From the NCBI GenBank assembly GCA_041879415.1, contig CP090853.1, positions 180,705 through 244,704 on the forward strand: a stretch of 64,000 nucleotides of DNA, read 5' to 3'. Of the stretch, positions 10,194-26,760 are shown one piece after another. Under the pieces are notes generated by a model. It was not told the DNA's origin. It saw nothing but the letters and a program-made list of their open reading frames with translations, and made no database searches. Positions within the stretch are counted from its first letter, which is position 1. The number at the start of each line of letters is the position of its first letter. A program made the translations under genes and the position numbers. The DNA is from Vibrio chagasii (GTDB lineage Bacteria; Pseudomonadota; Gammaproteobacteria; Enterobacterales; Vibrionaceae).

Positions 10194-10220
10194 TAAAAGT
10201 CGATATGGTTCAGACTTTTA
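10194..10220. promoter_or_regulatory. Inverted TAAAAGTC repeat upstream of the CrbR-like gene
   Basis: TAAAAGTC (10194-10201) and its exact reverse complement GACTTTTA (10213-10220), 11 bases apart, so centre-to-centre about 19 bp or two helical turns. Similar half sites (CTAAAGTC) occur upstream of other acetate-switch units in this window. This is a candidate autoregulatory operator. Confidence 0.5.
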
Positions 10221-10285
10221 ATGCATAGATATTGTCCACATACTCAATCAGGATGATAATAAATATTAACTAAATTGTTAAAAGT

Positions 10286-10924
10286 ATGGACGTCATGGAC
10301 TCGACCTACACCATCATCATTGCTGATGACCACCCTCTCTTCCGCAACGCCCTATTTCAGTCGGTTCATATGGCGATCAGCGGTGCGAACCTACTTGAGG
10401 CCGACTCTCTCGACGCGTTACTGACTCTGCTTAAAAAAGAAGATGAACCCGACCTACTGCTGCTCGATCTAAAAATGCCGGGAGCCAACGGAATGTCTGG
10501 TCTGATTCAGCTTCGTGCAGAATACCCAGACCTACCGATTGTCGTGATCTCGGCAAGTGAAGACGCTAGCGTGGTCACTCAAGTGAAAAGCCATGGTGCG
10601 TTTGGTTTTATTCCAAAGTCGAGTGACATGCGTGAATTGGTAAGTGCACTGAATCAAGTGCTGAATGGCGACCCGTTCTTTCCTGAAGGGCTGATTACTA
10701 ACAATGCGGCTTGTAGCGACCTTGCAGAAAAAATTGCCACACTGACGCCACAACAATACAAGGTGCTAGGGATGCTTTCCGACGGCCTGCTGAACAAGCA
10801 AATCGCCTATGAATTGAATGTTTCGGAAGCGACCATCAAGGCGCACATGACAGCCATCTTCCGAAAACTGGACGTAAAAAACCGAACTCAAGCGGTTATC
10901 TTACTGCAAGAAGTCCATAATTAA
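10286..10924 (+). CDS. crbR: NarL/LuxR-family response regulator, CrbR-like
   Basis: Two-domain response regulator. The receiver domain (about 1-125) has acidic residues ADD near 13-15, phospho-acceptor Asp61 in [10 protein letters not shown] and the switch Lys in GFIPKSS. The C-terminal LuxR-type HTH (about 145-212) contains [22 protein letters not shown]. Its partner is most likely the CrbS-type hybrid kinase at 17135-20566; CrbS/CrbR controls acs and the acetate switch in Vibrio. The pairing rests on neighbourhood and domain type. The ATG codons at 10286 and 10295 are both possible. Its stop overlaps that of nhaP2: the two convergent genes share the palindrome TTAA. Confidence 0.72.
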
Positions 10925-12672
10925 GCGCCGCTGACATCCTCATCTAAAGTCGTCTTAGGCAAACATAAACCCAGCTTGACGACTTTATGATCTTCTATCT
11001 CTGCAACCACCCAATTGATGTCATGCCACTCAAAACTATCACCCAATACTGGATGAGGACCAAGTTCGCGTTCAGCCAGCTCTTTTAGCGTCATCTCTCG
11101 CTCTTCTTCAGAACCAAGCTCAATGCCATAGCAATCACTCACTGCCGCAATCGACAAGCCAACCTCAAGGAAGAAATCACCAAAGAATCGTGCAGCCTCT
11201 TCAGCTTCCGGTGCTTCACTGAACAGCTCACTTAAACTGTCTAGGTCTTGGTCTTGGCCAAGCACACAAAGAATATCGTTCGCTTCTAACACTGTGCTAC
11301 CCGATGGGTGAAGCAAAGCGTCTTGTCGAAACAGTGCAGTAATACGTGTGCCTTCCGGCATCGACAAGCGCTTGAGCGGCTCACCGACACACCACTTCTC
11401 TTCTTTCAGCTTGTAGACAAACATCTCCCACTCACTGGTCGGGTAAATCTCGATACCAGTGCGTGAAATAGGTGTCGGTGTTGGTGGCAAGGTGACTTGA
11501 GCCAGCCTCGCAACTTTCATCAAGCTACCACCTTGAACAATCAACGACACCATAACCACGAAGAACGCGATATTGAAATACAATTGAGCATTAGGCAGGC
11601 CTGCCATCATCGGGAACACCGCCAAAATGATCGGCACCGCGCCACGTAAACCTACCCAAGAAACAAACCAGCGCTCCTTGGTGGTAAAACGTCGAAATGG
11701 CAACAGACCTAACCAAACCGACAGCGGACGAGCAAACAGGATCATACCGAAAGCTAGCGCCAAAGCAGGGAGTGCGATTTCCATCAATGTCGATGGTGTG
11801 ACCAAGAGACCGAGAACCAAGAACATCACAATCTGGCTTAGCCAGGTCATGCCATCAAGGACATTGAGAATCGAGTGTCGAGCGCGCGTTGGACGGTTAC
11901 CAATGAACAAGCCCACAAGGTAAATCGACAAGATGCCACTGCCGCCAAGCATATTAGAGAAAGCGAACAGAGCCACACCGCCGCTCAGTACCAGAATCGA
12001 GTAAAGACCATCAGCCAGCTGTATTCGGTTGATTAAACTCCACAGAACCCAACCGCCACCAAGACCAATAAGCGTACCAACACCAAATTGCATCGCGAAG
12101 CTTTTCAGCAGAAAGTTCATCCCCATCTCAGCATCTGGGGTGCCAAGTAGCGCGATTAAGGTCACCGTTAGGAAGACCGCCATTGGGTCGTTGGTACCAG
12201 ACTCTATCTCTAAGGTTGAGCCAACACGCTCGTTGAGGCTCTGCCCTTTGAGCAGAGAAAATACCGCCGCAGCATCGGTCGAGCCCACAATCGCGCCCAC
12301 TAGAATGCCTTGCATCAGTGATAGGTCGAATAGCCAAGCCGCCATTAAGCCGGTGAGGGTAGCAGTACAAGCCACACCTATGGTGGCTAACGACAGCGAA
12401 GGCCAAAACGCGACCTTAAAACTCGCCACCTTAGTGCGCATACCACCATCAAGCAGGATCACGGCAAGCGCGAGGTTACTCACCAAGTAAGTTAATGAAT
12501 AGTCATCAAAATTGATGCCGCCGGGGCCATCTTCGCCCGCCAACATACCAACAAACAAAAAGATCAAAAGAATCGGAACGCCCAATCGTGAGGACACTTG
12601 TGAGAAAAGCACACTGATGGCGATAAGCACTGCACCAGTTAAAAATAAGTGATTAATAGTTATTGCGTCCAA
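10921..12672 (-). CDS. nhaP2: K(+)/H(+) antiporter NhaP2 (CvrA)
   Basis: CPA1-type antiporter that expels K+ or Na+ in exchange for protons, implicated in cell volume and low-pH tolerance. It has 583 residues. The first about 400 form the Na/H-exchanger membrane domain, with the conserved [14 protein letters not shown] core and [11 protein letters not shown] cytoplasmic C-terminal part follows with a TrkA-C-like segment ([18 protein letters not shown]) and a final CorC/HlyC-like segment ([25 protein letters not shown], in pieces). The start is a TTG at 12672 preceded by GGGGGA. It converges on the regulator gene with a 4-bp overlap. Confidence 0.93.
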
Positions 12673-13073
12673 TTCGTTCCCCCAAAGAATAAAACTCGTG
12701 ATTAAAGCATGTCTAATTTCTGCTATTAAGCAAGAAAAGGGCTCTAAAAGCAGCGTAATTACTATAACAAACTTATATTTCCCTTCGTGTCATATGCAGG
12801 ACTAAATAATGATTCTCTGTCATTTAGTTGTTAAATTTTATTACTCACTCATTAATTCATCCCTTTTTGTTAGACCTTTGGCTAATTTAACAACCTTGTA
12901 ACATCACATTTTTATATGGTTTTGTCTCCCAACTCCCATATTTCAGTGGATTAGGGCTAATACCGTCCCGACTAAAGTTGCACAGATCCCTTGACTTATC
13001 CTTGCTACATTTCAAATCGTAACATTACGTTAACACAACGACATTCTACGGAAACGGAATAAAGGAGAAGGCA
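12673..13073. other. Divergent promoter region nhaP2 / actP operon
   Basis: About 400 bp without a gene. It is AT-rich in the first half. GACTAAAGT at 12970-12978 matches the word upstream of the DUF294 gene at 22045 exactly. A Shine-Dalgarno AAGGAGAAGG precedes the DUF4212 gene. I could not assign a -35/-10 pair with confidence. Confidence 0.5.
12970..12978 (+). promoter_or_regulatory. Candidate acetate-switch operator upstream of actP
   Basis: GACTAAAGT, about 95 bp before the start of the DUF4212-actP operon. See the finding on the recurrent CTAAAGTC motif. Confidence 0.35.
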
Positions 13074-13340
13074 ATGGCGTTCGAATCTACGGAACATGCT
13101 CAAGCCTACTGGAAGGAAAACTTGGGAATTATGGGAACACTGCTCGCGATCTGGTTCGCAGTGTCTTACGGCGCAGGCATCTTATTTGTTGATGCCCTTA
13201 ACACCGTTCAGTTTGGCGGGTTCAAGCTCGGCTTTTGGTTCGCTCAACAAGGCTCGATATACACCTTCGTGGCGCTGATATTCATTTACGTTGTCCGCAT
13301 GAATGCGCTCGACAAAAAATACAACGTACAGGAAGACTAG
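13074..13340 (+). CDS. DUF4212 small subunit of a sodium/solute symporter
   Basis: An 88-residue membrane protein with two predicted helices (about 19-41 and 58-79). It matches the small-subunit family that is always encoded just before a large Na+/solute symporter. It probably assembles with the ActP-type protein 10 bp downstream. ATG 13074 follows AAGGAGAAGG. Confidence 0.88.
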   Translation: MAFESTEHAQAYWKENLGIMGTLLAIWFAVSYGAGILFVDALNTVQFGGFKLGFWFAQQGSIYTFVALIFIYVVRMNALDKKYNVQED

Positions 13341-13350
13341 AGGCTAGAAC

Positions 13351-15054
13351 ATGGATATTCAAACTTGGACGTTTATTCTCGTCGGTATCACTTTCGCACT
13401 GTATATCGGCATCGCAATCTGGGCTCGCGCAGGGTCTACCAGTGAATTCTACGTTGCGGGCGGTGGTGTACACCCAGTAGCAAACGGTATGGCAACAGCC
13501 GCTGACTGGATGTCGGCAGCGTCATTCATCTCAATGGCAGGTATCATCTCATTCGTTGGTTACGACGGTGCGGTTTACCTGATGGGTTGGACAGGTGGTT
13601 ATGTACTACTTGCGCTATGTTTAGCACCTTACCTACGTAAGTTCGGTCAGTTTACGGTTCCTGATTTCATCGGTGAACGTTACTACTCGAAAACAGCACG
13701 TATGGTAGCGGTATTCTGTGCAATCTTCGTATCATTCACATACGTTGCGGGCCAGATGCGTGGTGTGGGCGTAGTATTCTCTCGTTTCCTAGAGGTCGAC
13801 ATTAACCTAGGTATCATCATTGGTATGGGTATTGTGTTCTTCTACGCAGTACTTGGTGGCATGAAAGGCATCACTTATACGCAGGTAGCTCAATTCTGTG
13901 TCCTCATTTTCGCCTTCCTTGTTCCAGCAATCTTCACGTCAATCATGATGACAGGTAACCCGCTTCCACAAGTTGGTATGGGTTCAACGATTTCAGGCAC
14001 AGACGTTTACCTACTCGATAAACTGGATGGACTCACCGAAGAACTCGGATTTACCGCCTATACCGAAGGTAACAAGAGCATGGTGGATGTATTCTTCATC
14101 TGTGCAGCTCTAATGGTAGGTACTGCAGGTCTTCCACACGTAATCATCCGTTTCTTCACAGTACCTAAAGTACGTGATGCGCGTATCTCAGCAGGTTGGG
14201 CACTACTGTTCATTTCATTGCTATACACAACAGCACCAGGCGTTGCAGCATTCGCTCGTGTAAACATGATTGAAACGATTAACGGCCCAGACATGCAAGG
14301 TGTCGCAGCAGCAGACGCACCTAGCTGGTACAAAAATTGGGAAAGCACTGGCCTAGTAGGTTGGGAAGATAAGAACGGCGATGGCAAAATGTTCTACTCG
14401 GGCGATGAGCGCAACGAGATGAAGATCAACCGTGACATCATCGTACTGGCTTCTCCAGAGCTAGCGAAACTACCAAACTGGGTTGTAGCACTACTGGCAG
14501 CCGGTGGCCTAGCAGCCGCACTATCAACAGCCGCAGGTCTACTACTAGTAATCTCAACATCGATTTCGCATGACTTGTTGAAGAAAGGCTTCAGACCAAA
14601 CATGACCGACAAGCAGGAGCTACTAGCCGCTCGTTTGGCAGCAATGGTCGCGATTATCGGTGCAGGTTACTTGGGTATTAACCCTCCAGGCTTCGTAGCT
14701 CAGGTAGTAGCGTTTGCCTTCGGCTTAGCCGCAGCATCCTTCTTCCCAGCAATTATCCTAGGTATCTTCTACAAGAAGATGAACAAGGAAGGCGCGATTG
14801 CAGGTATGTTGACAGGTATTGCCTTCACGGCAAGCTACATCATCTACTTCAAGTTCGTTAACCCAGCAGCAAGCACACCTGAAAACTGGTGGTTTGGTAT
14901 CAGCCCAGAAGGCATCGGTACGCTAGGTATGTGTCTAAACTTCGTAGTTTCAATTGCGGTAAACAAAGTGACTGCTGAAGTACCACAAGACGTACAAGAG
15001 ATGGTTGAAAACATCCGTTACCCTAAGGGTGCTGGTGAAGCTCACGACCACTAA
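13351..15054 (+). CDS. actP: Cation/acetate symporter, ActP-type large subunit
   Basis: Sodium:solute symporter (SSS family), 567 residues with about 13 predicted membrane segments. The visible SSS features are GGGVHPVANGMATAADWMSAASF near the N-terminus (in pieces), the GGMKG region and AALSTAAGLLLVIS in the middle. It belongs to the subfamily with a paired DUF4212 subunit. Acetate or another short-chain acid is the likely substrate, since acs, CrbS and the CrbR-like regulator are close. A strong terminator follows. Confidence 0.86.
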   Translation: MDIQTWTFILVGITFALYIGIAIWARAGSTSEFYVAGGGVHPVANGMATAADWMSAASFISMAGIISFVGYDGAVYLMGWTGGYVLLALCLAPYLRKFGQFTVPDFIGERYYSKTARMVAVFCAIFVSFTYVAGQMRGVGVVFSRFLEVDINLGIIIGMGIVFFYAVLGGMKGITYTQVAQFCVLIFAFLVPAIFTSIMMTGNPLPQVGMGSTISGTDVYLLDKLDGLTEELGFTAYTEGNKSMVDVFFICAALMVGTAGLPHVIIRFFTVPKVRDARISAGWALLFISLLYTTAPGVAAFARVNMIETINGPDMQGVAAADAPSWYKNWESTGLVGWEDKNGDGKMFYSGDERNEMKINRDIIVLASPELAKLPNWVVALLAAGGLAAALSTAAGLLLVISTSISHDLLKKGFRPNMTDKQELLAARLAAMVAIIGAGYLGINPPGFVAQVVAFAFGLAAASFFPAIILGIFYKKMNKEGAIAGMLTGIAFTASYIIYFKFVNPAASTPENWWFGISPEGIGTLGMCLNFVVSIAVNKVTAEVPQDVQEMVENIRYPKGAGEAHDH

Positions 15055-15131
15055 ACGCGACTACTAAACCGAGATGTTTAGCAAAAAATGACTCAGTACT
15101 TACATTGTAGGGATTAGGTACTGAATCTCAG

Positions 15132-15161
15132 AAAGCCGATACGTTATGTATCGGCTTTTTT
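15132..15161 (+). terminator. Intrinsic terminator after actP
   Basis: Perfect 11-bp stem AAAGCCGATAC / GTATCGGCTTT, loop GTTAT, then T run. Confidence 0.92.
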
Positions 15162-15217
15162 CTTTTGCCTACCGTTTTATAAAAACAGAAACAAAGGGTT
15201 GTTTTTAAAGTTTCATT

Positions 15218-15232
15218 TGATAATAATTATCA
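15218..15232. promoter_or_regulatory. Fur box upstream of the small gene and fumC
   Basis: TGATAAT-A-ATTATCA, an exact 7-1-7 Fur inverted repeat. Extended to 15237 it matches 16 of 19 bases of the classic Fur consensus. It lies about 20-35 bp before the small gene, so iron-bound Fur should repress the small gene and fumC. Confidence 0.85.
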
Positions 15233-15250
15233 TTAACATCCAATAAAGAG

Positions 15251-15643
15251 ATGAAGATGATGATGAAAGAGCAGCAGGTCCTCTATTCGAGGTTCTATAA
15301 AGCGCAGGATCGCTTTACCTCCTCAGAGCAAGTTCACGGCCACGAGCCGTTTGTAATTCGAGACTACATCGAGTGTGCACAAACGCTTGCCGCATACTAT
15401 GAAAAACACGCCGCCCAAGAAAATATCTTGCTATGCGAGCTGTACCTGCGCCAAGTTTTCTTCCATCTGATTGAAGCGATTGAGTCACCTGAGCGCAGTT
15501 TTACCTTTCGTCATATCTGCCTAGACTCAATTCACTCACCACTATTTTATCTAAAACGCCACTACTGCCAGCAACCACATGGCCAAGCGCGTTTTTTGAA
15601 TCTCAGCCAGACACTACAACAAGTCCAAGCCCCACTTGGCTAA
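15251..15643 (+). CDS. Small uncharacterised protein in a Fur-controlled fumC operon (FagA-like by position)
   Basis: A 130-residue soluble protein I do not recognise by sequence. It is rich in aromatic, His and Cys residues and probably all-alpha (YIECAQTLAAYYEKHA; LLCELYLRQVFFHLIEAIE). It has no signal peptide or membrane helix. Four in-frame ATGs lie within 15251-15265; AAAGAG at 15245 fits the ones at 15257-15263 better than the first. It is 12 bp before fumC, behind a Fur box. In Pseudomonas a small Fur-associated gene (fagA) stands in the same place before fumC, so the layout is shared even if homology is unproven. Confidence 0.75.
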   Translation: MKMMMKEQQVLYSRFYKAQDRFTSSEQVHGHEPFVIRDYIECAQTLAAYYEKHAAQENILLCELYLRQVFFHLIEAIESPERSFTFRHICLDSIHSPLFYLKRHYCQQPHGQARFLNLSQTLQQVQAPLG

Positions 15644-15655
15644 CAAGGATAGAAG

Positions 15656-17041
15656 ATGACCCTACAATATCGAATTGAAAAAGACAGCATGGGGGAAGTA
15701 AAAGTCCCTGCTGATGCGCTGTATCAAGCACAAACTCAACGTGCCGCAGATAACTTCGCGTTTAGCTCCCACAAAATGCCCACCAGCTTTATTCAAGCAC
15801 TGGCATTAATTAAACAAGCCGCTGCTGACACCAATGCTCAATTAGGTTTATTGGAAGGCGATATTGCCAATGCGATCGCTGATGCGAGCCAAGAGATCAT
15901 TGATGGTAAACATCTCGATCAATTCCCGATCGATGTTTATCAAACCGGCTCAGGTACTAGCTCCAACATGAACGCCAACGAAGTGATTGCGACACTCGCA
16001 TCAAGAAGTTTGCAAGGCGACGTGAACCCAAACGATCACGTCAATATGGGCCAAAGCAGCAACGATGTGGTGCCAACCGCGATTCAAGTCAGTGTCGCAC
16101 TCACTGCTGAAAACAAGCTGCTACCAGCACTAAGCCACCTGTCTGAAGCACTGAGCGTTAAACAGCAAGAGCTTGCTGAGGTCGTGAAAACCGGCCGCAC
16201 TCACCTAATGGATGCGATGCCGATTACCTTTGCGCAAGAGTTGGGTGGCTGGAAATTCCAGATTGAACACGCTAAACAAGCAATTGAAAGCACCTTGCCC
16301 GCTATTAAAGCACTTGCTCAAGGTGGAACGGCGGTAGGTACAGGCATCAATGCTGACCCTCGCTTTGCCGATAAGTTTGCAAGTAACCTGTCGCAGTCGA
16401 CAAAGATCGGCTTTAACTCGAGTGAAAACTTCTTTTTCAACCTCAGTAGTCAAGATGCGATCGTTGCCTTTTCGGGTCAGCTCAAAACTGCAGCAGTTGC
16501 GATCATGAAGATCGCAAACGATCTTCGTTGGATGAACTCTGGTCCATTAGCTGGCTTAGGAGAAATTGAATTGCAGGCGCTACAGCCAGGCTCATCCATC
16601 ATGCCTGGTAAAGTGAACCCTGTAATACCAGAAGCTGCAGCGATGGCCGCTGCACAGGTGATTGGTAACGACACCACCATTACGGTAGCTGGCCAGTCTG
16701 GCAACTTCCAACTGAATGTGATGCTGCCAGTGATTGCTCATAACGTATTAGAAAGTATCGAGCTTTTAGCTAACAGCTCTGTTGCGCTGGCAGATAAAGC
16801 AATTGCGACTTTCACTGTACGCCAAGACAATCTTGATTTAGCGCTTTCAAAGAATCCAATTCTGGTGACGGCGCTTAATCCTGTAATTGGTTACCTAAAG
16901 GCAGCAGATATTGCCAAGAAAGCCTACAAAGAAGGTTTGCCTATCCTTGATGTTGCAGAAAGAGAAACCGACCTAAGCCGAGAAGAACTCAGCAAGTTGC
17001 TTGACCCAACCGCGCTCACTCAAGGTGGTATCGCAGGTTAA
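15656..17041 (+). CDS. fumC: Class II fumarate hydratase
   Basis: Iron-independent, oxygen-stable fumarase interconverting fumarate and malate in the citric acid cycle. It has 461 residues. The signature GSSIMPGKVNPV lies near 320, with GTGTSSNMNANEV-type substrate-binding residues near 98-112 (here SGTSSNMNANEV) and TGRTHLMDA with the conserved His. The start follows AAGGAT. Being downstream of a Fur box, it is expected to replace Fe-S fumarases when iron is scarce. Confidence 0.96.
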   Translation: MTLQYRIEKDSMGEVKVPADALYQAQTQRAADNFAFSSHKMPTSFIQALALIKQAAADTNAQLGLLEGDIANAIADASQEIIDGKHLDQFPIDVYQTGSGTSSNMNANEVIATLASRSLQGDVNPNDHVNMGQSSNDVVPTAIQVSVALTAENKLLPALSHLSEALSVKQQELAEVVKTGRTHLMDAMPITFAQELGGWKFQIEHAKQAIESTLPAIKALAQGGTAVGTGINADPRFADKFASNLSQSTKIGFNSSENFFFNLSSQDAIVAFSGQLKTAAVAIMKIANDLRWMNSGPLAGLGEIELQALQPGSSIMPGKVNPVIPEAAAMAAAQVIGNDTTITVAGQSGNFQLNVMLPVIAHNVLESIELLANSSVALADKAIATFTVRQDNLDLALSKNPILVTALNPVIGYLKAADIAKKAYKEGLPILDVAERETDLSREELSKLLDPTALTQGGIAG

Positions 17042-17072
17042 ACCAGTCATTCATAACATGTCTATCGGATCA

Positions 17073-17098
17073 AAAAAGGCCTCATCTGAGGCCTTTTT
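17073..17098. terminator. Bidirectional terminator between fumC and crbS
   Basis: Stem AAAAAGGCCTC / GAGGCCTTTTT with ATCT loop. It has A and T runs on both sides, so it can stop both fumC (+) and crbS (-). Confidence 0.9.
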
Positions 17099-17134
17099 AG
17101 GATCTAATAGTTAATGGAAAATAGGTTAATTAAA

Positions 17135-20100
17135 TTAACTCACACGATTCAATACCGCTCTGAGTTTTAGCGGCTTCACAGGCTTGGCAATAAAGCTAAA
17201 ACTATTGGCTTTTATCGCTGCCAACATGTCATCGGTTCTATCGGCACTGATAATGACTCCCTCAAAAGAGTCACCCAGGCGTAAGCGACACTGCTGCAAC
17301 ACCTCAAGCCCTGTTCGCCCATTATCGAGACGGTAATCAGAGAAGATCACATCGGGTTTCCAGTCACCATCGAGGCACTTCAAACTCTCAACTAAATCAA
17401 CTGCGGTCTTAACCTCACAGCCCCAGCGACCGATCAGATTCTCCATACCCACTAAAATCTCTCGTTCATTATCGACACACAAGATTTTAAGGTGCTCGAT
17501 ATCACTGCTTGCCACTGGCGCAGCAGCTTGCACAACCGGAGCCACTTGTTCCGCTCTTGCTAAGGTAATAGAAAAGACACTGCCTCGTCCCGGCCATGAA
17601 CGCATCGATATTTGATGACCAAGCACATGAGCAATACCTTTAGAAATCGCGAGCCCCAGCCCTAAACCTTGATCAGAACGCACTTGGCTACCACGAGTGA
17701 ACTCTTCGAAGATCTCTTGTTGCTTGTCTTCATCAATACCGGTTCCGTTATCCCACACATCGATTCGCACCTGCCCGTTGACTCGTCTTGCTCCGAGCAC
17801 CACTTTGCCTTCTGGGTTATAGCGGAAGGCATTAGTCAAAAAGTTCTGAATCACTCGTCTCAGCAACTTAGGATCAGATTGAATAAACAAGGATGATGGG
17901 ATCATCTTGAAATCAATTTTTTGCTGCGTCGCTAAAGCACTAAATTCCGCATTCAAGTTCGCAAGCACATCATGCACCGCAATGGCGTGGATGTTGGTTT
18001 CCAGTTTGCCAGACTCTAATCGTGAAATATCTAGCAAGTCGCCTATCAAGTCCTCGGCTGCACCCAATGCACTTTCAATATGAGACGAAAGCTGCTTCAC
18101 TTCCTGCTCTTTTGCTACCTCCGAAAGTGACGAAGCAAACAAACGCGCGGCATTCAGTGGCTGCATCAAATCGTGGCTCACCGCCGCTAAGAAACGACTC
18201 TTTGATTGGGATTCTTGATCAGATATCTGCGTTGCTTTAACCAAGCGATGGTTCAGCTTTTCGAGCTCTTGAGTTCGTTCGTGTACTCTTGATTCCAAGC
18301 TTTCATTCGCGTCTTTTAACGCCTGTTCTGCTTGTCTAAATACCGTGATATCGGTAAAGCTCATCACAAAGCCGCCGCTTGGCATTGGGTTACCTTGCAC
18401 CTCAATCACTCGACCATCAGGACGAATGCGAGAAGAGGTGTGTCGTGTACCTTGTTCCAAGTGATAAACACGGCGACGCACGTGATCTTCAGGGTCACCC
18501 GGACCACACAAACCTTGCTGCGCATTGTGACGAATCACATCGGAGATCGGCCTGCCCACTTGTATCAAGCCAGCAGGGAATTCAAACAGTTCTAAGTAAC
18601 GCTGATTCCATGCCACCAGCCTCATCTGTTTGTCCACCACTGCAATCCCTTGACCAATGTGCTCAATCGCTCCTTGTAGCAAACCACGGCTGAAATCGTA
18701 CAACTCCGAGGCTTCATCAACGATGGTCGCCACTTCTTCAAGCTGCATATTTCTGCCCTGTAAAGCAGAAGTGAGTACTAACTTTGCAGATGAAGCACCA
18801 AACACACCCGCCAACACGCGCTCAGCATGTCGAATCAAGCTTGCAGGGGCTTGCTGATTAGGAAGCAGTGGCTGACCTTGTTGTTGCCAGTAGCTTTGAA
18901 TAGCGCTTTTCGCTCGCTTGCGACCGACAAAACGCGACGCCAACATCTCTAGTTCCGCAACTGTCACACGGTTTTGATAGAGGCTAATATTTTCATTTTC
19001 AGGTAGTGGCGTACCAACGAATGCCGCCGATTGTAAGCGCTCACTTAGGCTTGGTCTGGTAGAGATCGAGACCACAGCATAGCAAAGAGTATTAAGCACA
19101 ATACTTAGCACTATCCCCCAATTTGAACTACTGATATTCCAACTACTGAGCAGCTCTGGCGGTGTGATAATCCACAACAATAGGTTACTTTCACTGTCTC
19201 CAGCCAACATACTGGTTTGACTCATCAGGGTAATGAGCCAAATCACCGAGCCAACCATTAAGCCGACATAAACACCCTTACGATTGCCCGGGCGCCAATA
19301 CAAACCACCAATAAGTGCCGGTGCAAATTGAGCAATCGCAGCAAACGAAAGAAAGCCGATAGCAGATAAAGAATGTATGGTATCGAGCGCTTGATAGAAT
19401 AACCAAGCACCAAGTAGAAGCAGTAAAATAAGCCCGCGACGAATCACCAATAGCAACCCAGAGAAATGGCGATGAGTCCTTTGAGTGAGTCGCATACGGC
19501 GCAGCAATAGTGGCATCACTAAATCGTTCGACACCATGATCGCCAACGCGATGGTCGATACGATCACCATGCCACTGGCCGCCGACGTACCGCCAAGGAA
19601 CGCAAGCAAAGCAATGTGATTGGCACCTTCAGCCATCGGCAGGCTAATCACATACGTATCTGCGGGCATGCTTGGAAGCAGTCCTTGCCCCGCCCATGCA
19701 ATCGGAAGAACAAACAGCCCCATCAAAATCAGATAAAGCGGAAATAACCAGCGAGCGGTGTGCAGGTCTTGAGGTCTTTCATTCTCAACAACCATGGTAT
19801 GGAACTGACGCGGTAAGCAGACAATCGCCAACATGGTCAAAACAGTATGGATAATTAAGGTCGGAATATTCGGCGATTCATAAGTGCTCGCGGCCACGTC
19901 GAGCAGGTCAATCTTGTCGCTGCTCATCGCCAGATACATGATAAACAGGCCAACAATCAAAAATGCCGCCAGCTTAACGATGGATTCAAACGCCACCGCC
20001 ATCATCATGCCACGGTGGTGTTCCGTGTTATCAATGTGCCTTGTACCAAACAGCATGGTAAAAATGGCCAGCGCACCGACCACAAACCAAGAAACATGGT

Positions 20101-20566
20101 AATCCTGATAGCCAAAATCTTGCGTCAAACTAGGTGCGACAATATCTAACCCCATGGTGATGCCACGCAGTTGTAAGGCAATATAAGGAAGAATACCGAT
20201 CACAGCAATCACGGTGACGGCTACCGCTAAGCCCTGAGACTTTCCGTAACGAGCCGCGATGAAGTCGGCAATTGAGGTAATGTGTTCCCGTTTCGCTATC
20301 AGAATCAGTCGCGCTAAGATCCGCCACCCAAGAGTGAAGACCAAAATCGGTGCAAGATAGATGGGTAAGAAAGACCAAGGGTTATTACTCGCCTGACCCA
20401 CCGTTCCATAGAAGGTCCACGAAGTACAATACACCGCAATAGAAAGACTATAGATCCACGGTCGCCAACGCGATAGCCAACGAACCTGCCTGTCTCCATA
20501 CCAAGCGATCAGAAATAACACGCCCAAGTAGGCTAAAGAGACTGGAATTACTACCCATCCTTGCAT
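17135..20566 (-). CDS. crbS: CrbS-type hybrid histidine kinase with N-terminal solute symporter domain
   Basis: A membrane sensor combining an SSS-family transporter domain (about residues 1-500, about 13 helices), a linker, a PAS domain (about 610-730), a coiled coil, and a histidine kinase. The phospho-acceptor is His798 in AVSHDLMQPLNAAR; the ATPase has DNGTGID and GLGLGLAISKG. A C-terminal receiver carries Asp1077 in FSDYRL. I chose ATG 20566 (MQGWVVIPV, 1143 residues) with AAAGGG upstream. The frame from 20620 would be encoded by the upstream terminator hairpin. CrbS in vibrios activates acs through CrbR; the gene is close to actP, the CrbR-like gene and acs. Whether the SSS domain transports or only senses is open. 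Confidence 0.9.
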   Translation of the reverse strand: MQGWVVIPVSLAYLGVLFLIAWYGDRQVRWLSRWRPWIYSLSIAVYCTSWTFYGTVGQASNNPWSFLPIYLAPILVFTLGWRILARLILIAKREHITSIADFIAARYGKSQGLAVAVTVIAVIGILPYIALQLRGITMGLDIVAPSLTQDFGYQDYHVSWFVVGALAIFTMLFGTRHIDNTEHHRGMMMAVAFESIVKLAAFLIVGLFIMYLAMSSDKIDLLDVAASTYESPNIPTLIIHTVLTMLAIVCLPRQFHTMVVENERPQDLHTARWLFPLYLILMGLFVLPIAWAGQGLLPSMPADTYVISLPMAEGANHIALLAFLGGTSAASGMVIVSTIALAIMVSNDLVMPLLLRRMRLTQRTHRHFSGLLLVIRRGLILLLLLGAWLFYQALDTIHSLSAIGFLSFAAIAQFAPALIGGLYWRPGNRKGVYVGLMVGSVIWLITLMSQTSMLAGDSESNLLLWIITPPELLSSWNISSSNWGIVLSIVLNTLCYAVVSISTRPSLSERLQSAAFVGTPLPENENISLYQNRVTVAELEMLASRFVGRKRAKSAIQSYWQQQGQPLLPNQQAPASLIRHAERVLAGVFGASSAKLVLTSALQGRNMQLEEVATIVDEASELYDFSRGLLQGAIEHIGQGIAVVDKQMRLVAWNQRYLELFEFPAGLIQVGRPISDVIRHNAQQGLCGPGDPEDHVRRRVYHLEQGTRHTSSRIRPDGRVIEVQGNPMPSGGFVMSFTDITVFRQAEQALKDANESLESRVHERTQELEKLNHRLVKATQISDQESQSKSRFLAAVSHDLMQPLNAARLFASSLSEVAKEQEVKQLSSHIESALGAAEDLIGDLLDISRLESGKLETNIHAIAVHDVLANLNAEFSALATQQKIDFKMIPSSLFIQSDPKLLRRVIQNFLTNAFRYNPEGKVVLGARRVNGQVRIDVWDNGTGIDEDKQQEIFEEFTRGSQVRSDQGLGLGLAISKGIAHVLGHQISMRSWPGRGSVFSITLARAEQVAPVVQAAAPVASSDIEHLKILCVDNEREILVGMENLIGRWGCEVKTAVDLVESLKCLDGDWKPDVIFSDYRLDNGRTGLEVLQQCRLRLGDSFEGVIISADRTDDMLAAIKANSFSFIAKPVKPLKLRAVLNRVS

Positions 20567-20588
20567 TGAAAACCCTTTCTTCATCCAT

Positions 20589-20617
20589 AAAAAAACCTCT
20601 CCATAAGGGAGAGGTTT
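20589..20617 (-). terminator. Intrinsic terminator immediately upstream of crbS
   Basis: On the minus strand AAACCTCTCC, loop CTTAT, GGAGAGGTTT, then seven T. It would end the HcaT-like gene (stop at 20698). The T run ends only 22 bases before the crbS start codon. Confidence 0.88.
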
Positions 20618-20668
20618 CATTTAACTAAGGATGAGTCATTAACTCAATCGCATCGCTTAAATTCTGTG

Positions 20669-20677
20669 CTTTAGACT
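20669..20677. promoter_or_regulatory. TTAGACT motif between the HcaT-like gene and crbS
   Basis: Reads GTCTAAAGC toward crbS, and TTAGACT on the plus strand. The heptamer also occurs upstream of the DUF294 gene and acs. Confidence 0.3.
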
Positions 20678-20697
20678 CTAATAATCACGATTGGTTA

Positions 20698-21879
20698 TCA
20701 GCTATGAACTTCTGACTCAGGTTGATTAACTTCAACCACAGAGCTTCTTTCATCAAGCTTGATAAACAGGGCAATTGCACCCATCGCAGCCATTCCCCAG
20801 AAGATATTCGCCCCCCACAATTCGTAGCCCCAACCACTTAAGGTCGTCATTAACGCGATAAAGGCGCCAAGTGGTATCGCATTGTATAGAGCTTGCAGTG
20901 CCACCATTTTGTTCGACTCTTGAGACTGAATGTACTGAATCGCCGCGATATGTGCCATGGCGAAAGTCACCCCGTGCAACAACTGAACCAATATCAATAC
21001 TGGAATCGCAGTCGTTGACGCAGTAATACCCCAACGAGCCATGACCCCAATCGCGGCAATCACAAACAGAGTACGCAACGCTAACCCAGCAAACAGTCGC
21101 TTGCTCAGAGCAAATACTGCCACTTCAGCAACCACGGCTAAGCTCCACAGATAACCGATGATCGCCTCAGAGTGGCCCGCCTCTTTCCAGTAAATCGCAC
21201 TAAAGCTGTAATACGCGGCGTGGCTTCCTTGAAGCAATGCCATCAATGCAAGAAACTTAACTACCGATGATTCACGTAACAGTTGACCAAGTTTAGGTCT
21301 TTCAGCCACCTGCTCTGATTCTGTCACCGGCATCACGTTCGGGTTTCTCATCGCAAACAACAGAGAAACCAACACACCTGCCAGCGCAGTATATAGAATC
21401 ATATCTGTGCCAAATTCAGCCACCAGATAACCAACTACGGTAGAGCCCGCAATAAATGCCACTGATCCCCACAGACGCGTACGTCCGTAATCAAGCATAT
21501 TAAGTCGGCTGTAATGGTTTGCCATTGCATCTGAAAGTGGAATCACAGGACCACAGCAAAGGTTGAAAAGTACCGTTGCCAACAACATCAGTACAAAGCT
21601 ACCGCCGGTGAAAAAGTGGAAGCCAACAAATAGCAGTGCCGCAAAACTCAACCAGCGCAGAGCTGGCATCAGGTGTTCAACCTTGTGTATACGAGGTGTG
21701 ATTAATAAATTTGCCACACAACGCGTCGCAAAACCCACACCAATCAATACGCCAATGTCCCCCGCAGAAACACCTTGGTCTTCAAACCATAACGCCCAAA
21801 ATGGCAGATAAACGCCATAGGCAAAAAAGAAACCGAGAAAATACTGGGATATCCAGCCATAAGGGGAAGGTTTAAACAT
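20698..21879 (-). CDS. MFS transporter, HcaT-like (3-phenylpropionate transporter family)
   Basis: A 393-residue major facilitator with 12 predicted helices. Long stretches resemble E. coli HcaT, for example LLQGSHAAYYSFSAIYW and GYLWSLAVVAEV, plus PLSDAMAN and GRTRLWGSVAF. I chose ATG 21879 (MFKPSPYGWIS); the longer frame to 21918 begins at a TTG without family sequence. The true substrate in Vibrio is unknown. No aromatic-acid catabolism genes are nearby, so the phenylpropionate role should not be assumed. Confidence 0.85.
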   Translation of the reverse strand: MFKPSPYGWISQYFLGFFFAYGVYLPFWALWFEDQGVSAGDIGVLIGVGFATRCVANLLITPRIHKVEHLMPALRWLSFAALLFVGFHFFTGGSFVLMLLATVLFNLCCGPVIPLSDAMANHYSRLNMLDYGRTRLWGSVAFIAGSTVVGYLVAEFGTDMILYTALAGVLVSLLFAMRNPNVMPVTESEQVAERPKLGQLLRESSVVKFLALMALLQGSHAAYYSFSAIYWKEAGHSEAIIGYLWSLAVVAEVAVFALSKRLFAGLALRTLFVIAAIGVMARWGITASTTAIPVLILVQLLHGVTFAMAHIAAIQYIQSQESNKMVALQALYNAIPLGAFIALMTTLSGWGYELWGANIFWGMAAMGAIALFIKLDERSSVVEVNQPESEVHS

Positions 21880-22040
21880 AGGCAACCTATAAAAATGTGC
21901 GGAACAAGGAAGCGCCAATTATGCCTAGGTCACAAAAGATGAAAAAGGGAATTATTGCGGGGATAGTATTCCCATATTCAATTAGTTCAGATATCGCATT
22001 TCAGCAAGATATCTAAGCTCTCCAAGTCGCCACTCTCTCA

Positions 22041-22053
22041 CTTAGACTAAAGT
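22041..22053. promoter_or_regulatory. Candidate acetate-switch operator upstream of the DUF294 gene
   Basis: CTTAGACTAAAGT contains the small dyad TTAG-A-CTAA and the octamer CTAAAGTC (22047-22054), which is repeated upstream of acs. Confidence 0.4.
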
Positions 22054-22117
22054 CGTCTGGAGCTTCGCTAGTAATTTGTCAGACTGAAAAGAGACTCCCA
22101 TTTCTTTGCCATTGCTT

Positions 22118-23944
22118 ATGCCTGATAAATTTAATATGCAGCACCCGCCTTTCGATAGCTTGTCTGAAACTGAACAGTTAACGCTGCGCTCGGCTTTGGA
22201 CGTGGTTTACTACCGAGCACACGAAGTGATATTGGAAGCAGACCGCCCGAGTCGACACCTGCATATTCTGATTAAAGGTGCTGTTGAAGAGCGTTCCAGC
22301 AGTGATGGAGAGATCTATGCGCACTATGCCAATGACGATATTTTCGATGTACGCAGCCAGTTCGAGCCTCATACAAAACATCAATATATCGCGCTGGAAG
22401 ACACACTAAGTTACCTATTACCAAGCGACGTTTTTCTTGAGCTATACCACGCCAACGGCCAATTCGCCGCTTACTTTGATAGCAACCTCTCAACCCGAAA
22501 AGCATTGATTGAAGCCGCTCAGCAACAGCAGAATCTTGCCGAGTTCATACTGACCAAAGTCGATGATTCGATTTATCACCCACCACTGATACTTGAACCC
22601 GACCAACCTATCAATCAAGTGACTCAAACCCTTAAAGAACAAGGCTTAGACTCGGCCTTGGTTCATTTGGAACATGATAATCCAAAAGCTTTTGGATCAT
22701 CATGTTCCTTTCCGTATGGAATCGTCACGCGGACCAATTTATTGCACGCGGTGATGCTCGATGATCGCCCACTCGATACACCTGTCGGCGAGATAGCAAC
22801 CTTCCCTGTTTTGCATGTTAATCATGGTGACTTCTTGTTTAACGCCATGATTACCATGACAAGGAATCGTGTAAAAAGGCTGATGGTGTGTGATGGTCTC
22901 AATGCGGTCGGCATGGTAGATATGACGCAAATACTCAGTGCGTTTTCCACTCACTCGCATGTTCTTACGTTGCGTATTGCTCGAGCCACCAGCATTGAAG
23001 AATTGGCGATGGCTTCCAACAAGCAACGTCAACTGGTCGAAAGCCTGCTCAGTAATGGTATTCGCACACGTTTCATCATGGAGCTGATTTCTGCCGTCAA
23101 TGAACAGATTATTGAAAAGGCATTTGAACTGGTGATTCCCCCTGCGCTACACAACCATTGTTGTCTCATCGTGCTAGGTTCAGAAGGTCGCGGAGAACAG
23201 ATACTCAAAACCGATCAAGACAATGCGTTGATCATTCAAGACGGATTAGAGTGGCACCAATGCCAAAATGCGATGAATGATCTCACTCATACGTTGCAAC
23301 AATTAGGTTATCCACTGTGTCCTGGCAACGTAATGGTCAACAACCCGAAGTGGGTTCATTCAGAACAAGAATGGAAACAAACTCTGACGAGTTGGGTAAA
23401 AAAAGCGACGCCAGATACGGTGATGGATATTGCCATTATGGCGGATGCACACGCAGTTGCAGGCAATAGAGATCTGCTACTCCCTGTTAAGCAGCACTTG
23501 AGTGATTTAATGCTAGGGCAAGAGCTAATTCTGACCGAATTCTGCCGCCCTGCATTGAACTTCTCAGTACCTCTCACTCTGTTTGGCAACGTGAAACAGT
23601 CCAAGTCAGGACTAGACATCAAACAAGGCGGTATTTTCCCAATTGTCCACGGTGTAAGAGCACTGAGCCTTGAACACGGCGTGACGGCCAATAGTACCTT
23701 CGAACGCATTGAACAACTGGTGAACAAGAAAGTGTTGGAGCAAAGCACCGCAGACAACCTCAGTGAAGCACTCAAACAATTCTTCAAATGGCGCTTAGCA
23801 CAACGCCTGTCACAACAGCACAGCAGTAACAAAATAGACGTCAAACTGATGGAGAGAGCGGATAGAGATCTGCTTCGTCATAGCCTGCATGTGGTTAAGA
23901 AGTTCAAACAATGGCTTGGATACCACTATCAGATAAGAGATTAG
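22118..23944 (+). CDS. Cyclic-nucleotide-binding/CBS/DUF294 nucleotidyltransferase-like protein
   Basis: A signal-transduction-type protein of 608 residues from ATG 22118 (the longer frame begins at a TTG with no better ribosome site). It has, in order: a cNMP-binding-like beta-roll (about 1-130), two CBS motifs (about 155-275) that in other proteins bind adenine nucleotides, and the DUF294 GlnD-like nucleotidyltransferase core. That core has GSEGRGEQ followed by KTDQDNALI (about residues 354-370), containing the expected GS and DxD metal-binding residues. A DUF294_C helical domain follows. The true reaction is unknown. The stop is 11 bp before an exonuclease gene, and acs follows. This set is a recurrent neighbour of CrbS-type kinases. 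Confidence 0.88.
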   Translation: MPDKFNMQHPPFDSLSETEQLTLRSALDVVYYRAHEVILEADRPSRHLHILIKGAVEERSSSDGEIYAHYANDDIFDVRSQFEPHTKHQYIALEDTLSYLLPSDVFLELYHANGQFAAYFDSNLSTRKALIEAAQQQQNLAEFILTKVDDSIYHPPLILEPDQPINQVTQTLKEQGLDSALVHLEHDNPKAFGSSCSFPYGIVTRTNLLHAVMLDDRPLDTPVGEIATFPVLHVNHGDFLFNAMITMTRNRVKRLMVCDGLNAVGMVDMTQILSAFSTHSHVLTLRIARATSIEELAMASNKQRQLVESLLSNGIRTRFIMELISAVNEQIIEKAFELVIPPALHNHCCLIVLGSEGRGEQILKTDQDNALIIQDGLEWHQCQNAMNDLTHTLQQLGYPLCPGNVMVNNPKWVHSEQEWKQTLTSWVKKATPDTVMDIAIMADAHAVAGNRDLLLPVKQHLSDLMLGQELILTEFCRPALNFSVPLTLFGNVKQSKSGLDIKQGGIFPIVHGVRALSLEHGVTANSTFERIEQLVNKKVLEQSTADNLSEALKQFFKWRLAQRLSQQHSSNKIDVKLMERADRDLLRHSLHVVKKFKQWLGYHYQIRD

Positions 23945-23955
23945 GCACTTCAACG

Positions 23956-24588
23956 ATGAATAGACTGGTTCGCTATTATTGGCATTACAAGCTCAAAGGC
24001 TCTCCCTACCAGCCTCTGTTTACTGCGCCTGTTCATCAAGAATATGTCTCACTCGATTGTGAAACCACCAGCCTCGACCCTAATCAGGCTGAACTAGTCA
24101 CCATTGCCGCGACCAAGATCATCGGCAACCGCATCATCACCAGTAAGCCCTTCGAAGTGCGGCTACGAGCCCCTCAATCCCTCGACTACAATTCAATCAA
24201 AATTCACCGTATTCGCCACCAAGATTTAAAACACGGCATCGAAGAGAAGCAGGCTCTGATTGAATTACTTAACTTTATTGGTAATCGTCCTTTAGTCGGC
24301 TATCACATCCGCTATGACAAAAAAATTCTCGACCGCACCTGTTTAAAACAACTCGGATTCCCGCTGCCTAACCGCTTAGTCGAAGTGAGCCAGCTCTATC
24401 AAGATAAATTGGAAAGACAGCTGCCGAATGCTTATTTCGACCTCAGTATGGATGCGATTTGTCGCCAACTCGACTTACCGATTCCAGTCAATAAACATGA
24501 TGCATTACAAGACGCTATCTCTGCTGCTCTGATCTTTGTTCGTCTGAAACATGGCGATCTACCCCGTTTCAACTCTTCATACACCTAA
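23956..24588 (+). CDS. DEDDh 3'-5' exonuclease (DNA polymerase III epsilon-like)
   Basis: A 210-residue stand-alone exonuclease of the DnaQ superfamily. Exo I is SLDCETTSLD (Asp, Glu), Exo II GYHIRYDKKIL (Asp), Exo III HDALQDAISAA (His, Asp), so all DEDDh residues are present. I chose ATG 23956 because the frame from 23911 overlaps the DUF294 gene. It is not the replicative DnaQ: it is too short at the C-terminus and lies in the wrong context. Co-transcription with the DUF294 gene is very likely (11-bp gap). Its substrate could be DNA, RNA or short signalling nucleotides. Confidence 0.88.
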   Translation: MNRLVRYYWHYKLKGSPYQPLFTAPVHQEYVSLDCETTSLDPNQAELVTIAATKIIGNRIITSKPFEVRLRAPQSLDYNSIKIHRIRHQDLKHGIEEKQALIELLNFIGNRPLVGYHIRYDKKILDRTCLKQLGFPLPNRLVEVSQLYQDKLERQLPNAYFDLSMDAICRQLDLPIPVNKHDALQDAISAALIFVRLKHGDLPRFNSSYT

Positions 24589-24672
24589 TTCAACCCCTGC
24601 ATCTCGACATAGAGAGCAACATCTCAAAAATGAACTTAACTCGCTATTTTTTAAGTGAAAAGCGGCGTCTCA

Positions 24673-24685
24673 TCCTAAAGTCTAA
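24673..24685. promoter_or_regulatory. Candidate acetate-switch operator upstream of acs
   Basis: TCCTAAAGTCTAA, about 125-140 bp before acs. It contains CTAAAGTC (24675-24682) and, on the other strand, TTAGACT. Confidence 0.4.
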
Positions 24686-24810
24686 TTGTGGAAATCGCCG
24701 TCCTAGCCGAGAGTGATAACACAAAGACGGTTCTGTAATAGACCTAGAAACTGAACGAACACAAAGGAAGTTGCCAGTTCATTAGGAATGTAGGCACAAG
24801 GAGAGATGCA

Positions 24811-26760
24811 ATGAGTGAAGCCCACGTTTATCCGGTAAAAGAAAATATTAAATCAACCACACACGCGGATAATGACACTTACCTAGCCATGTACCAACAA
24901 TCTGTTTCTGACCCAGAAGGCTTTTGGGGTGAACACGGAAAAATCGTGGATTGGATTAAGCCATTCACAAAAGTAAAAAATACCTCTTTCGATCCAGGCC
25001 ACATCGATATTCGCTGGTTTGAAGATGGCACACTCAACGTGTCTGCTAACTGTATTGACCGACACCTTGCTGAGCGCGGTGATGAAGTCGCAATCATCTG
25101 GGAAGGCGATGACCCTGCTGATGATAAAACCCTCACTTTTAATGAATTGCACAAAGAAGTGTGTCTGTTCTCTAACGCTCTAAAGGAGCAAGGCGTACGT
25201 AAAGGCGACGTAGTTTGTCTGTACATGCCAATGGTACCTGAGGCTGCGGTTGCTATGCTGGCGTGTACTCGTATTGGTGCGGTTCACACAGTAGTATTCG
25301 GTGGTTTCTCACCAGAAGCTCTGTCAGGTCGTATTATCGATTCGAATGCTAAAGTCGTGATCACAGCCGATGAAGGCGTGCGTGGCGGCCGAGCTGTTCC
25401 TCTTAAGAAAAACGTCGATGAAGCACTGACTAACCCAGAAGTGAAAACCATCGAAAAAGTGATGGTGCTTAAGCGCACTGGCGGCGATGTTGCATGGCAT
25501 GAGCACCGTGATATTTGGTGGCATGAGGCGACAGCAAACGTATCAGCAGACTGCCCACCAGAAGAGATGAATGCGGAAGACCCACTATTTATCCTTTATA
25601 CATCAGGCTCAACAGGCAAACCAAAAGGTGTAATGCATACTACCGGTGGTTACCTTGTTTACGCAGCGATGACCTTTAAATACGTATTTGATTACCAAGA
25701 AGGCGAAACCTTCTGGTGTACTGCCGATGTGGGTTGGATTACTGGCCACACATACCTTGTTTACGGACCACTGGCTAACGGCGCTAAGACAATCCTGTTT
25801 GAAGGTGTACCAAACTACCCGAACACAAGCCGCATGAGCGAAGTGGTTGATAAGCACCAAGTCAACATTCTTTACACTGCACCAACAGCTATTCGTGCAT
25901 TAATGGCGAAAGGCAATGAAGCGGTTGAAGGCACATCTCGTGACAGCTTAAGAATCATGGGCTCGGTAGGTGAACCTATTAACCCAGAAGCGTGGGAGTG
26001 GTACTACAAAACGATTGGTAACGAGCAATCTCCAATTGTTGATACATGGTGGCAAACCGAAACGGGCGGTATCCTAATTGCCCCACTACCGGGCGCTACC
26101 GACCTAAAACCGGGCTCAGCGACTCGTCCATTCTTCGGTGTACAACCTGCGCTAGTAGATAACATGGGTAACATCATTGAAGGCGCTACCGACGGCAACC
26201 TCGTCATTCTAGACTCGTGGCCTGGTCAAATGCGTACCGTTCATGGCGATCATGACCGTTTTGAGCAGACATATTTCTCTACCTTCAAAGGCATGTACTT
26301 CACCAGTGATGGTGCTCGTCGTGATGAAGACGGCTACTACTGGATTACTGGTCGTGTTGATGACGTACTGAACGTATCTGGTCACCGTATGGGTACTGCT
26401 GAGATTGAGTCAGCGCTAGTTGCATTCGATAAGATTGCAGAGGCTGCGATTGTCGGTATTCCTCACGACATCAAAGGCCAAGCGATTTACGCTTACATCA
26501 CGCTTAATGATGGCGAGTTCCCAACCGCAGAGCTTCATAAAGAAGTGAAAGACTGGGTACGTAAAGAGATCGGCCCTATTGCGACACCAGATGTACTGCA
26601 CTGGACCGATTCATTACCGAAAACACGTTCAGGTAAGATCATGCGTCGTATCCTACGTAAGATAGCAACGGGCGATACCGGCAACCTTGGTGATACTTCA
26701 ACGCTAGCTGACCCAAGTGTAGTTGATAAGCTGATCGCAGAGAAAGCTGAATTGGCATAA
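24811..26760 (+). CDS. acs: Acetyl-CoA synthetase (AMP-forming)
   Basis: Activates acetate with ATP and CoA through acetyl-AMP, scavenging acetate in the acetate switch. It has 649 residues, the family length. The adenylate-forming signature [18 protein letters not shown] (A3) lies near 265, [10 protein letters not shown] (A5) near 414. The C-terminal [11 protein letters not shown] holds the lysine (third residue from the end of SGK) that Pat-type acetyltransferases modify and CobB restores. ATG 24811 follows AAGGAGAG. It lies downstream of the DUF294/exonuclease pair with its own 220-bp regulatory region. Confidence 0.97.

Follow-up and report, generated by a model that had tools for sequence, protein, structure and literature searches.

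We analysed a stretch of 64,000 nucleotides from Vibrio chagasii (contig CP090853.1, positions 180,705 to 244,704; hereafter the window), with a focus on a motif that recurs upstream of the genes of the acetate switch, a cluster that includes the sensor kinase gene crbS and the response regulator gene crbR. With a probability of about 90%, this motif is a box known from the literature, the ACTU motif, and serves as operator of CrbR, which would act on acs, on DUF4212-actP and on the DUF294-exonuclease pair; crbR and crbS do not carry the box. Comparison of the window with orthologous loci identified the real repeated object as a 17-bp imperfect inverted repeat, approximately TTAGnC(T/C/A)AA(A/G)GTCTAA. 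The sequences and the conservation of four such boxes were computed here; binding of CrbR and activation of these genes in this Vibrio are predicted by analogy with the relatives discussed below. The four boxes and their matrix scores are as follows.

24670..24686, plus strand: ACTU box TCATCCTAAAGTCTAAT upstream of acs; score 18.2
22042..22058, plus strand: ACTU box TTAGACTAAAGTCGTCT between mfs (minus strand) and the DUF294 gene (plus strand); score 20.0, the best in the window
12967..12983, plus strand: proximal ACTU box CCCGACTAAAGTTGCAC upstream of DUF4212-actP; score 16.7
12869..12885, minus strand: distal ACTU box TTAGCCAAAGGTCTAAC, some 98 bp before the proximal actP box; score 17.6

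Conservation of four boxes and the published ACTU system

Orthologous upstream regions came from 80 loci that surround crbS, chosen as the best 80 among 244 relatives; most are from Vibrio, with Aliivibrio and one Photobacterium. A region was accepted if the gene had at least 50% identity, the match started no more than 25 residues from the gene start and at least 60 bp of upstream sequence were present. Altogether, with the window included, this yielded 78 regions from 79 matches for acs, 76 from 77 for the DUF294 gene, 60 from 60 for DUF4212, 57 from 58 for crbR and 80 from 81 for crbS.

The acs core CTAAAGTCTAAT is kept in all 78 acs regions and GAC[CT]AAAGTCG[TC]CT in all 76 DUF294 regions. 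The proximal actP box, as [CT]GACTAAAGT, occurs in 55 of the 60 DUF4212 regions and the distal one, as TTAGAC.TT.GG.TA, in 49, with Aliivibrio accounting for 8 of the 11 misses. In redundancy-reduced sets of 45, 53 and 32 representatives, the boxes ranked fourth (acs), fourth (DUF294), first (actP distal) and fifteenth (actP proximal) for conservation among 285 windows.

A box matrix built from 20 orthologous sites, with the four promoters weighted equally, assigned its four top scores in the window to these boxes, and the fifth match reached only 12.4. An Infernal sequence model made from the same 20 sites also ranked the four boxes at the top of the window. As the matrix and the model were trained on orthologues of the very sites under test, these scores measure specificity within the 64 kb, where nothing else is so similar, and are not an independent discovery. 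Of the sites listed in the initial annotation of this DNA, those before the DUF294 gene, acs and actP (proximal) were retained as conserved 17-bp boxes with top matrix scores, whereas those before crbR and crbS were not; the distal actP box had been missed.

The attribution of the motif to CrbR and the placement of the DUF294-exonuclease pair in its regulon, both already proposed in that annotation, agree with the conservation described above and with four publications (PMC5715377, PMC5436829, PMC8402216 and PMC9927547). Sepulveda and Lupas 2017 described the ACTU motif as a 17-bp imperfect inverted repeat needed for CrbR-mediated activation in P. fluorescens; CrbR-dependent activation was lost on mutation of the motif, with a test in P. 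fluorescens and a reconstitution in E. coli (PMC5715377). The boxes of the window share the letters of this repeat (for instance, PFLU0447 TACGACTAAAGTCTAAA) and its location, since ACTU sites are reported before acs, actP and pflu5625 homologues in Gammaproteobacteria, five species listed as Vibrio among them (PMC5715377, Tables 3 and 4). A difference is that actP is preceded here by two conserved boxes. The P. fluorescens acs box lies at -52 to -36, just upstream of an RpoD promoter (PMC5715377), and in the window -10-like hexamers were read by eye about 20-27 nt downstream of the boxes. In V. cholerae, acs transcription was abolished by deletion of crbS and likewise by deletion of crbR (PMC5436829).

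The MxtR/ErdR system of P. putida KT2440 is similar in that ErdR (CrbR) bound the promoter of pp_0354 in an electrophoretic mobility shift assay, and pp_0354 encodes a CBS-domain protein in an operon with a second gene, pp_0353 (PMC8402216, PMC9927547). The pair differs in setting and role: in the window it lies between mfs-crbS and acs, whereas P. putida pp_0353 matters for pyruvate and not for acetate. Judged by domain make-up, the counterparts of pp_0354 and pp_0353 in the window would be the cNMP-CBS-DUF294 and 3'-5' exonuclease genes. The product of pp_0353 is presumably an exonuclease of the kind found here.

In the proposed mechanism, CrbS, active in acetate-using conditions, would drive CrbR, which would exert its effect at the imperfect dyad TTAGnC-N4-GTCTAA, immediately upstream of where RNA polymerase binds. 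CrbR would thereby activate acs, DUF4212-actP (with its two boxes) and the DUF294-exonuclease pair, and the divergent mfs gene may also depend on the box at 22042.

Several observations weigh against this assignment. A matrix trained on acs sites alone lifted just 23 of the 76 DUF294 regions over the 95th percentile of shuffled sequences, and the boxes therefore differ among themselves. A genome-wide search with the box model, in which 150 of 2689 candidates were scored, returned three matches with E values from 0.29 to 2.5; it recovered neither the acs box nor the actP boxes, which makes the genome-wide ranking rough. The CrbR protein has ErdR (NF041830) as its best NCBIfam match at 249.3 bits, under the cut-off of 390; this family appears to be narrow to Pseudomonas, and the protein is called CrbR-like by its context and best match. 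For P. putida, acsA-I fragments gave no shift with ErdR, although according to the authors these fragments did not contain the motif (PMC8402216, PMC9927547). Finally, short and mid-length forms of the motif are not enriched in the genome: GACTAAAGTC with up to one mismatch occurs 245 times against 552 for its reversed control, MCHAARGTCTAA occurs 16 times against 18 (11 of these 16 within open reading frames, ORFs), and further forms gave 55 against 75 and 9 against 16. Because such forms stay at or under their controls, the box is not callable without conservation or position.

The same limitation applies to the short strings from which the motif had been proposed. All of them were found where they had been reported, including the following.

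10194..10220: inverted repeat TAAAAGTC-N11-GACTTTTA, before crbR
12970..12978 and 22045..22053: GACTAAAGT, before DUF4212-actP and before the DUF294 gene
22047..22054 and 24675..24682: CTAAAGTC, before the DUF294 gene and before acs

Their recurrence, however, carries little weight. The window has four copies of CTAAAGTC, where 2.49 would be expected, and 24 of 100 shuffles reach this number or more. Two of the four copies lie inside coding sequence (10944 and 25349). The test proposed with the motif, its frequency elsewhere in the genome, went against the short form, and the counting of short strings was dropped as evidence for lack of excess over controls. Perfect 8-bp inverted repeats with a spacer of up to 20 are also common (108 in the window compared to 23.0 in shuffles), so the one before crbR is not rare here. 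A match upstream of fumC was attributed to coding sequence, being inside a 130-aa ORF (15251-15643).

Such counts, equal to or under controls, are what would be expected if a short AT-rich string simply turned up between genes by chance. Near-invariant conservation at four Vibrionaceae promoters and the earlier experimental work (PMC5715377) speak so strongly against this explanation that we regard it as having next to no likelihood for the motif as a whole. It is already refuted for the four boxes and holds for the string before crbS.

Upstream regions of crbR and crbS

The initial annotation had extended the same box to crbR and crbS. Four sequence features are relevant to these two upstream regions.

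10209..10220, plus strand: conserved block TTCAGACTTTTA before crbR, containing the right arm of TAAAAGTC-N11-GACTTTTA; not a typical ACTU box
10232..10260, plus strand: likely crbR promoter TTGTCC-17-GATAAT, read by eye, with ATTGTCCA conserved
20669..20677, minus strand: string GTCTAAAGC before crbS; not an ACTU box
20594..20616, minus strand: terminator-like hairpin with a T-run between mfs and crbS (fold z -2.78)

At the crbR site (10194-10220) the letters do not match the ACTU box, and the best score of the region is 1.9, compared to 16.7-20.0 for the four boxes. The inverted repeat was also rejected as a conserved dyad. Among 41 readable orthologues (57 examined), the left arm reads AAAAGT in 26 and AAAACC in 10, and the symmetry is lost. 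The block TTCAGACTTTTA is nevertheless the most conserved of 289 windows in the crbR upstream region and is located just upstream of the likely promoter. Within this region 37 of the 57 orthologues keep CAGACTTTTA, and in these 37 it lies at -74 to -76 relative to the gene start.

This combination of a conserved block next to TTGTCC-17-GATAAT and a poor ACTU score could be explained if the site were the operator of another regulator, positioned upstream of the crbR -35 element. We consider this a serious contender, if slightly short of an even chance, given that the half-site AGTCT/AGACT is common to the ACTU box and that no candidate regulator was identified. The block may perhaps be a weak CrbR site or a different operator.

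The crbS string fared worse. It is kept, as [TC]CTAAAGC, in only 13 of the 80 crbS regions, the best score of its region is 5.1, and its stretch ranked 167 of 292 windows for conservation, in a comparison where the region is largely mfs coding sequence.

In its full version, the earlier proposal implies one CrbR box before crbR and crbS too, with both genes under direct autoregulation. Apart from the conservation of TTCAGACTTTTA and CAGACTTTTA, this idea draws on the resemblance to the acs box of CTAAAAGTCTGAA, the reverse complement of the crbR block in some orthologues, and on a weak predicted box of P. fluorescens CrbS with a q value of 0.6 (PMC5715377). The acs-trained matrix also placed 15 of 57 crbR and 8 of 80 crbS regions over the 95th percentile of shuffles. 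The median best scores of this matrix, however, fall under those of shuffles for both genes (5.8 compared to 6.4 for crbS and 5.8 compared to 6.9 for crbR). Together with the low four-promoter scores, the poor conservation of the crbS string and the varying left arm at crbR, this makes direct autoregulation of both genes rather unlikely, and we retain the reading in which neither gene carries the ACTU box.

The gene order around crbS is well conserved. In all 80 loci, mfs stands before crbS in the same orientation, and in 76 of 77 loci mfs and the DUF294 gene are divergently oriented no more than 600 bp apart, here with the box at 22042 in between. Terminator-like structures were found in 55 of 80 mfs-crbS gaps by an ad hoc criterion applied without a control. 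The hairpin at 20594-20616 overlaps the opening codons of the longest reading frame of crbS, and for that reason the true crbS start is probably at 20566. Transcripts of crbS must cross this hairpin or begin very near the gene. The box at 22042 could reach crbS only through mfs and the hairpin.

Candidate sites elsewhere in the genome

The three genome-wide matches of the box model correspond to a site upstream of a 43-aa ORF, the DUF294 box and a site after htpG. The first of these was the best match (G000:C1:2553060-2553076; 14.5 bits, E 0.29) and is outside the training set. It contains the perfect palindrome TTAGACTAAAGTCTAA, with the 12-base acs core CTAAAGTCTAAT inside. The palindrome starts 248 bp before the ORF, which is on the same strand and encodes MFVDFLVRLTIGTLVILGFKLSALYFLPMVLLLNTHHKEFFGW, with the C-terminus LLNTHHKEFFGW in this genome. 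In the fetched locus the arrangement is as follows.

L086:1137-1268, minus strand: 43-aa ORF
L086:1501-1516: palindrome

No Pfam or NCBIfam match was found for the 43-aa product at E values up to 1; its hydrophobic sequence suggests a membrane protein. The ORF appears to be a true gene, as the codon differences between the copy in this genome and 29 other sequences (453 synonymous and 142 nonsynonymous) are as for a coding gene. DNA matches to it occurred in 36 of 80 genomes of the genus, with none in 44. On the protein level, 17 of the 197 genomes searched in the order gave a match; 6 of these belong to the genus, in which at least 7 more genomes had none. The protein is therefore widespread and not universal.

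The ORF occurs together with 14-16 of the 16 palindrome bases in all 30 loci fetched (from 30 of the 36 matching genomes). Two further families retain the box at 13-14 of 16 bases (six loci); in a third family (five loci, L199-L203) the protein has another C-terminus, and the closest string matches 8-9 of 16 bases. Across the 80 genomes of the genus, 85 copies of the palindrome were counted when up to one mismatch was allowed, compared to 21 for the reversed control, and they fall in 56 compared to 17 genomes. A full-length CrbS relative with at least 55% identity was present in all 15 tested genomes that carry the 43-aa ORF; among 17 tested genomes without it, 10 have CrbS relatives and 7 showed weak matches only (best E 1e-16 to 1e-33).

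These sequence data suggest that the 43-aa gene is probably a further member of the CrbR regulon. An alternative owner of the palindrome would be the neighbouring GntR gene. A GntR/FCD gene adjoins the ORF in this genome and in 21 of the 30 genus loci, but this gene was not found within about 1.5 kb in the other 9, which keep 14-16 of 16 bases, nor in seven further ORF loci (L192-L198) with the box at 13-15 of 16. Since the palindrome also includes the 12-base acs core, its role as a GntR operator instead of a CrbR site seems improbable.

A second candidate regulon member is a gene pair with the same type of site. A conserved ACCTTAGTCTAAATTGTCGACAA island (L109:1501-1547) is located before a pair of GntR and PEP-mutase/ICL-family genes (Pfam), which we read tentatively as prpR-prpB, the latter methylisocitrate-lyase-like and presumably involved in propionate use. 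Matches to this region occur in 62 of 80 genus genomes. A CTTAGTCTAA-like string stands beside TTGTCGACAA within 250 bp upstream in 28 of 30 such loci, as judged by eye, and 25 of 30 contain ACCTTAGTCTAA at some point of their central 1.7 kb. GntR may use the two TTGTCGACAA repeats as operators, in which case part of the apparent box conservation could belong to them.

Direct control by CrbR of the 43-aa membrane protein, through the best box of the genome, and of prpR-prpB would amount to a broader short-chain fatty acid regulon. On the sequence data we give this proposal even odds, an estimate reduced on account of the 44 of 80 genus genomes without a DNA match to the ORF and of the failure of the genome-wide ranking to recover the acs and actP boxes. 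In the literature searched, mostly at the level of abstracts and largely without subscription journals, neither was named as a CrbR target, which is not proof of absence. Tables 3 and 4 of PMC5715377 do not list them either, Table 4 being limited to P. fluorescens.

Two other sites were seen in closer relatives only. The candidate box TAAGACCAAGGTCTAA (L089:1497-1513) precedes an 81-aa membrane-protein ORF. Of 9 loci, our own included, 8 keep 15-16 of 16 bases while the flanks diverge; the ninth (L235), at 9 of 16, comes from an unrelated, short match. The third genome match of the box model (L097:1497-1513) lies between htpG and adk. A box-like string is present there in 10 of 10 loci, our own included (7 as TTAGCCCAAAGTCGAAA and 3 as TTAACCTAAAGTCGAA[AG]; the weak-match loci L217-L226 were left out). 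This site was rejected as a probable chance match: the whole matched stretch is 81-91% alike in nine relatives, and a terminator-like stretch follows it. In terms of function, AMP released by Acs would be recycled by the adk product.

Gene content of the cluster and implications

The genes of the cluster were assigned by domain and family matches as follows.

10286..10924, plus strand: crbR, response regulator with REC and LuxR-type helix-turn-helix domains (Pfam PF00072, PF00196)
13074..15054, plus strand: DUF4212 small symporter subunit gene and actP (SSF), by Pfam/NCBIfam
17135..20620, minus strand: crbS, hybrid histidine kinase with a long N-terminal part (Pfam PAS_7, HisKA, HATPase_c, Response_reg)
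20701..21918, minus strand: mfs, 3-phenylpropionate-type MFS transporter (PRK11128, 537.7 bits, cut-off 259)
22118..24588, plus strand: DUF294 (cNMP-CBS-DUF294) and 3'-5' exonuclease genes, by domain matches
24811..26760, plus strand: acs, acetate-CoA ligase (TIGR02188, 1012.9 bits, cut-off 724.95)

For the SLC5-type N-terminus expected of CrbS, the Pfam scan did not report an SSF domain; 502 aa of the N-terminal part match a chain described as 'histidine kinase' (10ed_A, E 1.9e-60). Between actP and crbS (15251-17041) are the 130-aa ORF, which is without a family match, and fumC. A match to fumC was present in just 36 of 81 sequences, whose flanks were limited to 10 kb.

Real and apparent CrbR sites are now separated in a metabolic switch that has been studied before. 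The core motif finding was known already, and the second conserved box of actP and the 43-aa small membrane protein as a regulon candidate are added here. If the predicted targets are true, the 'acetate switch' of vibrios would include a small membrane protein and would extend to propionate use.

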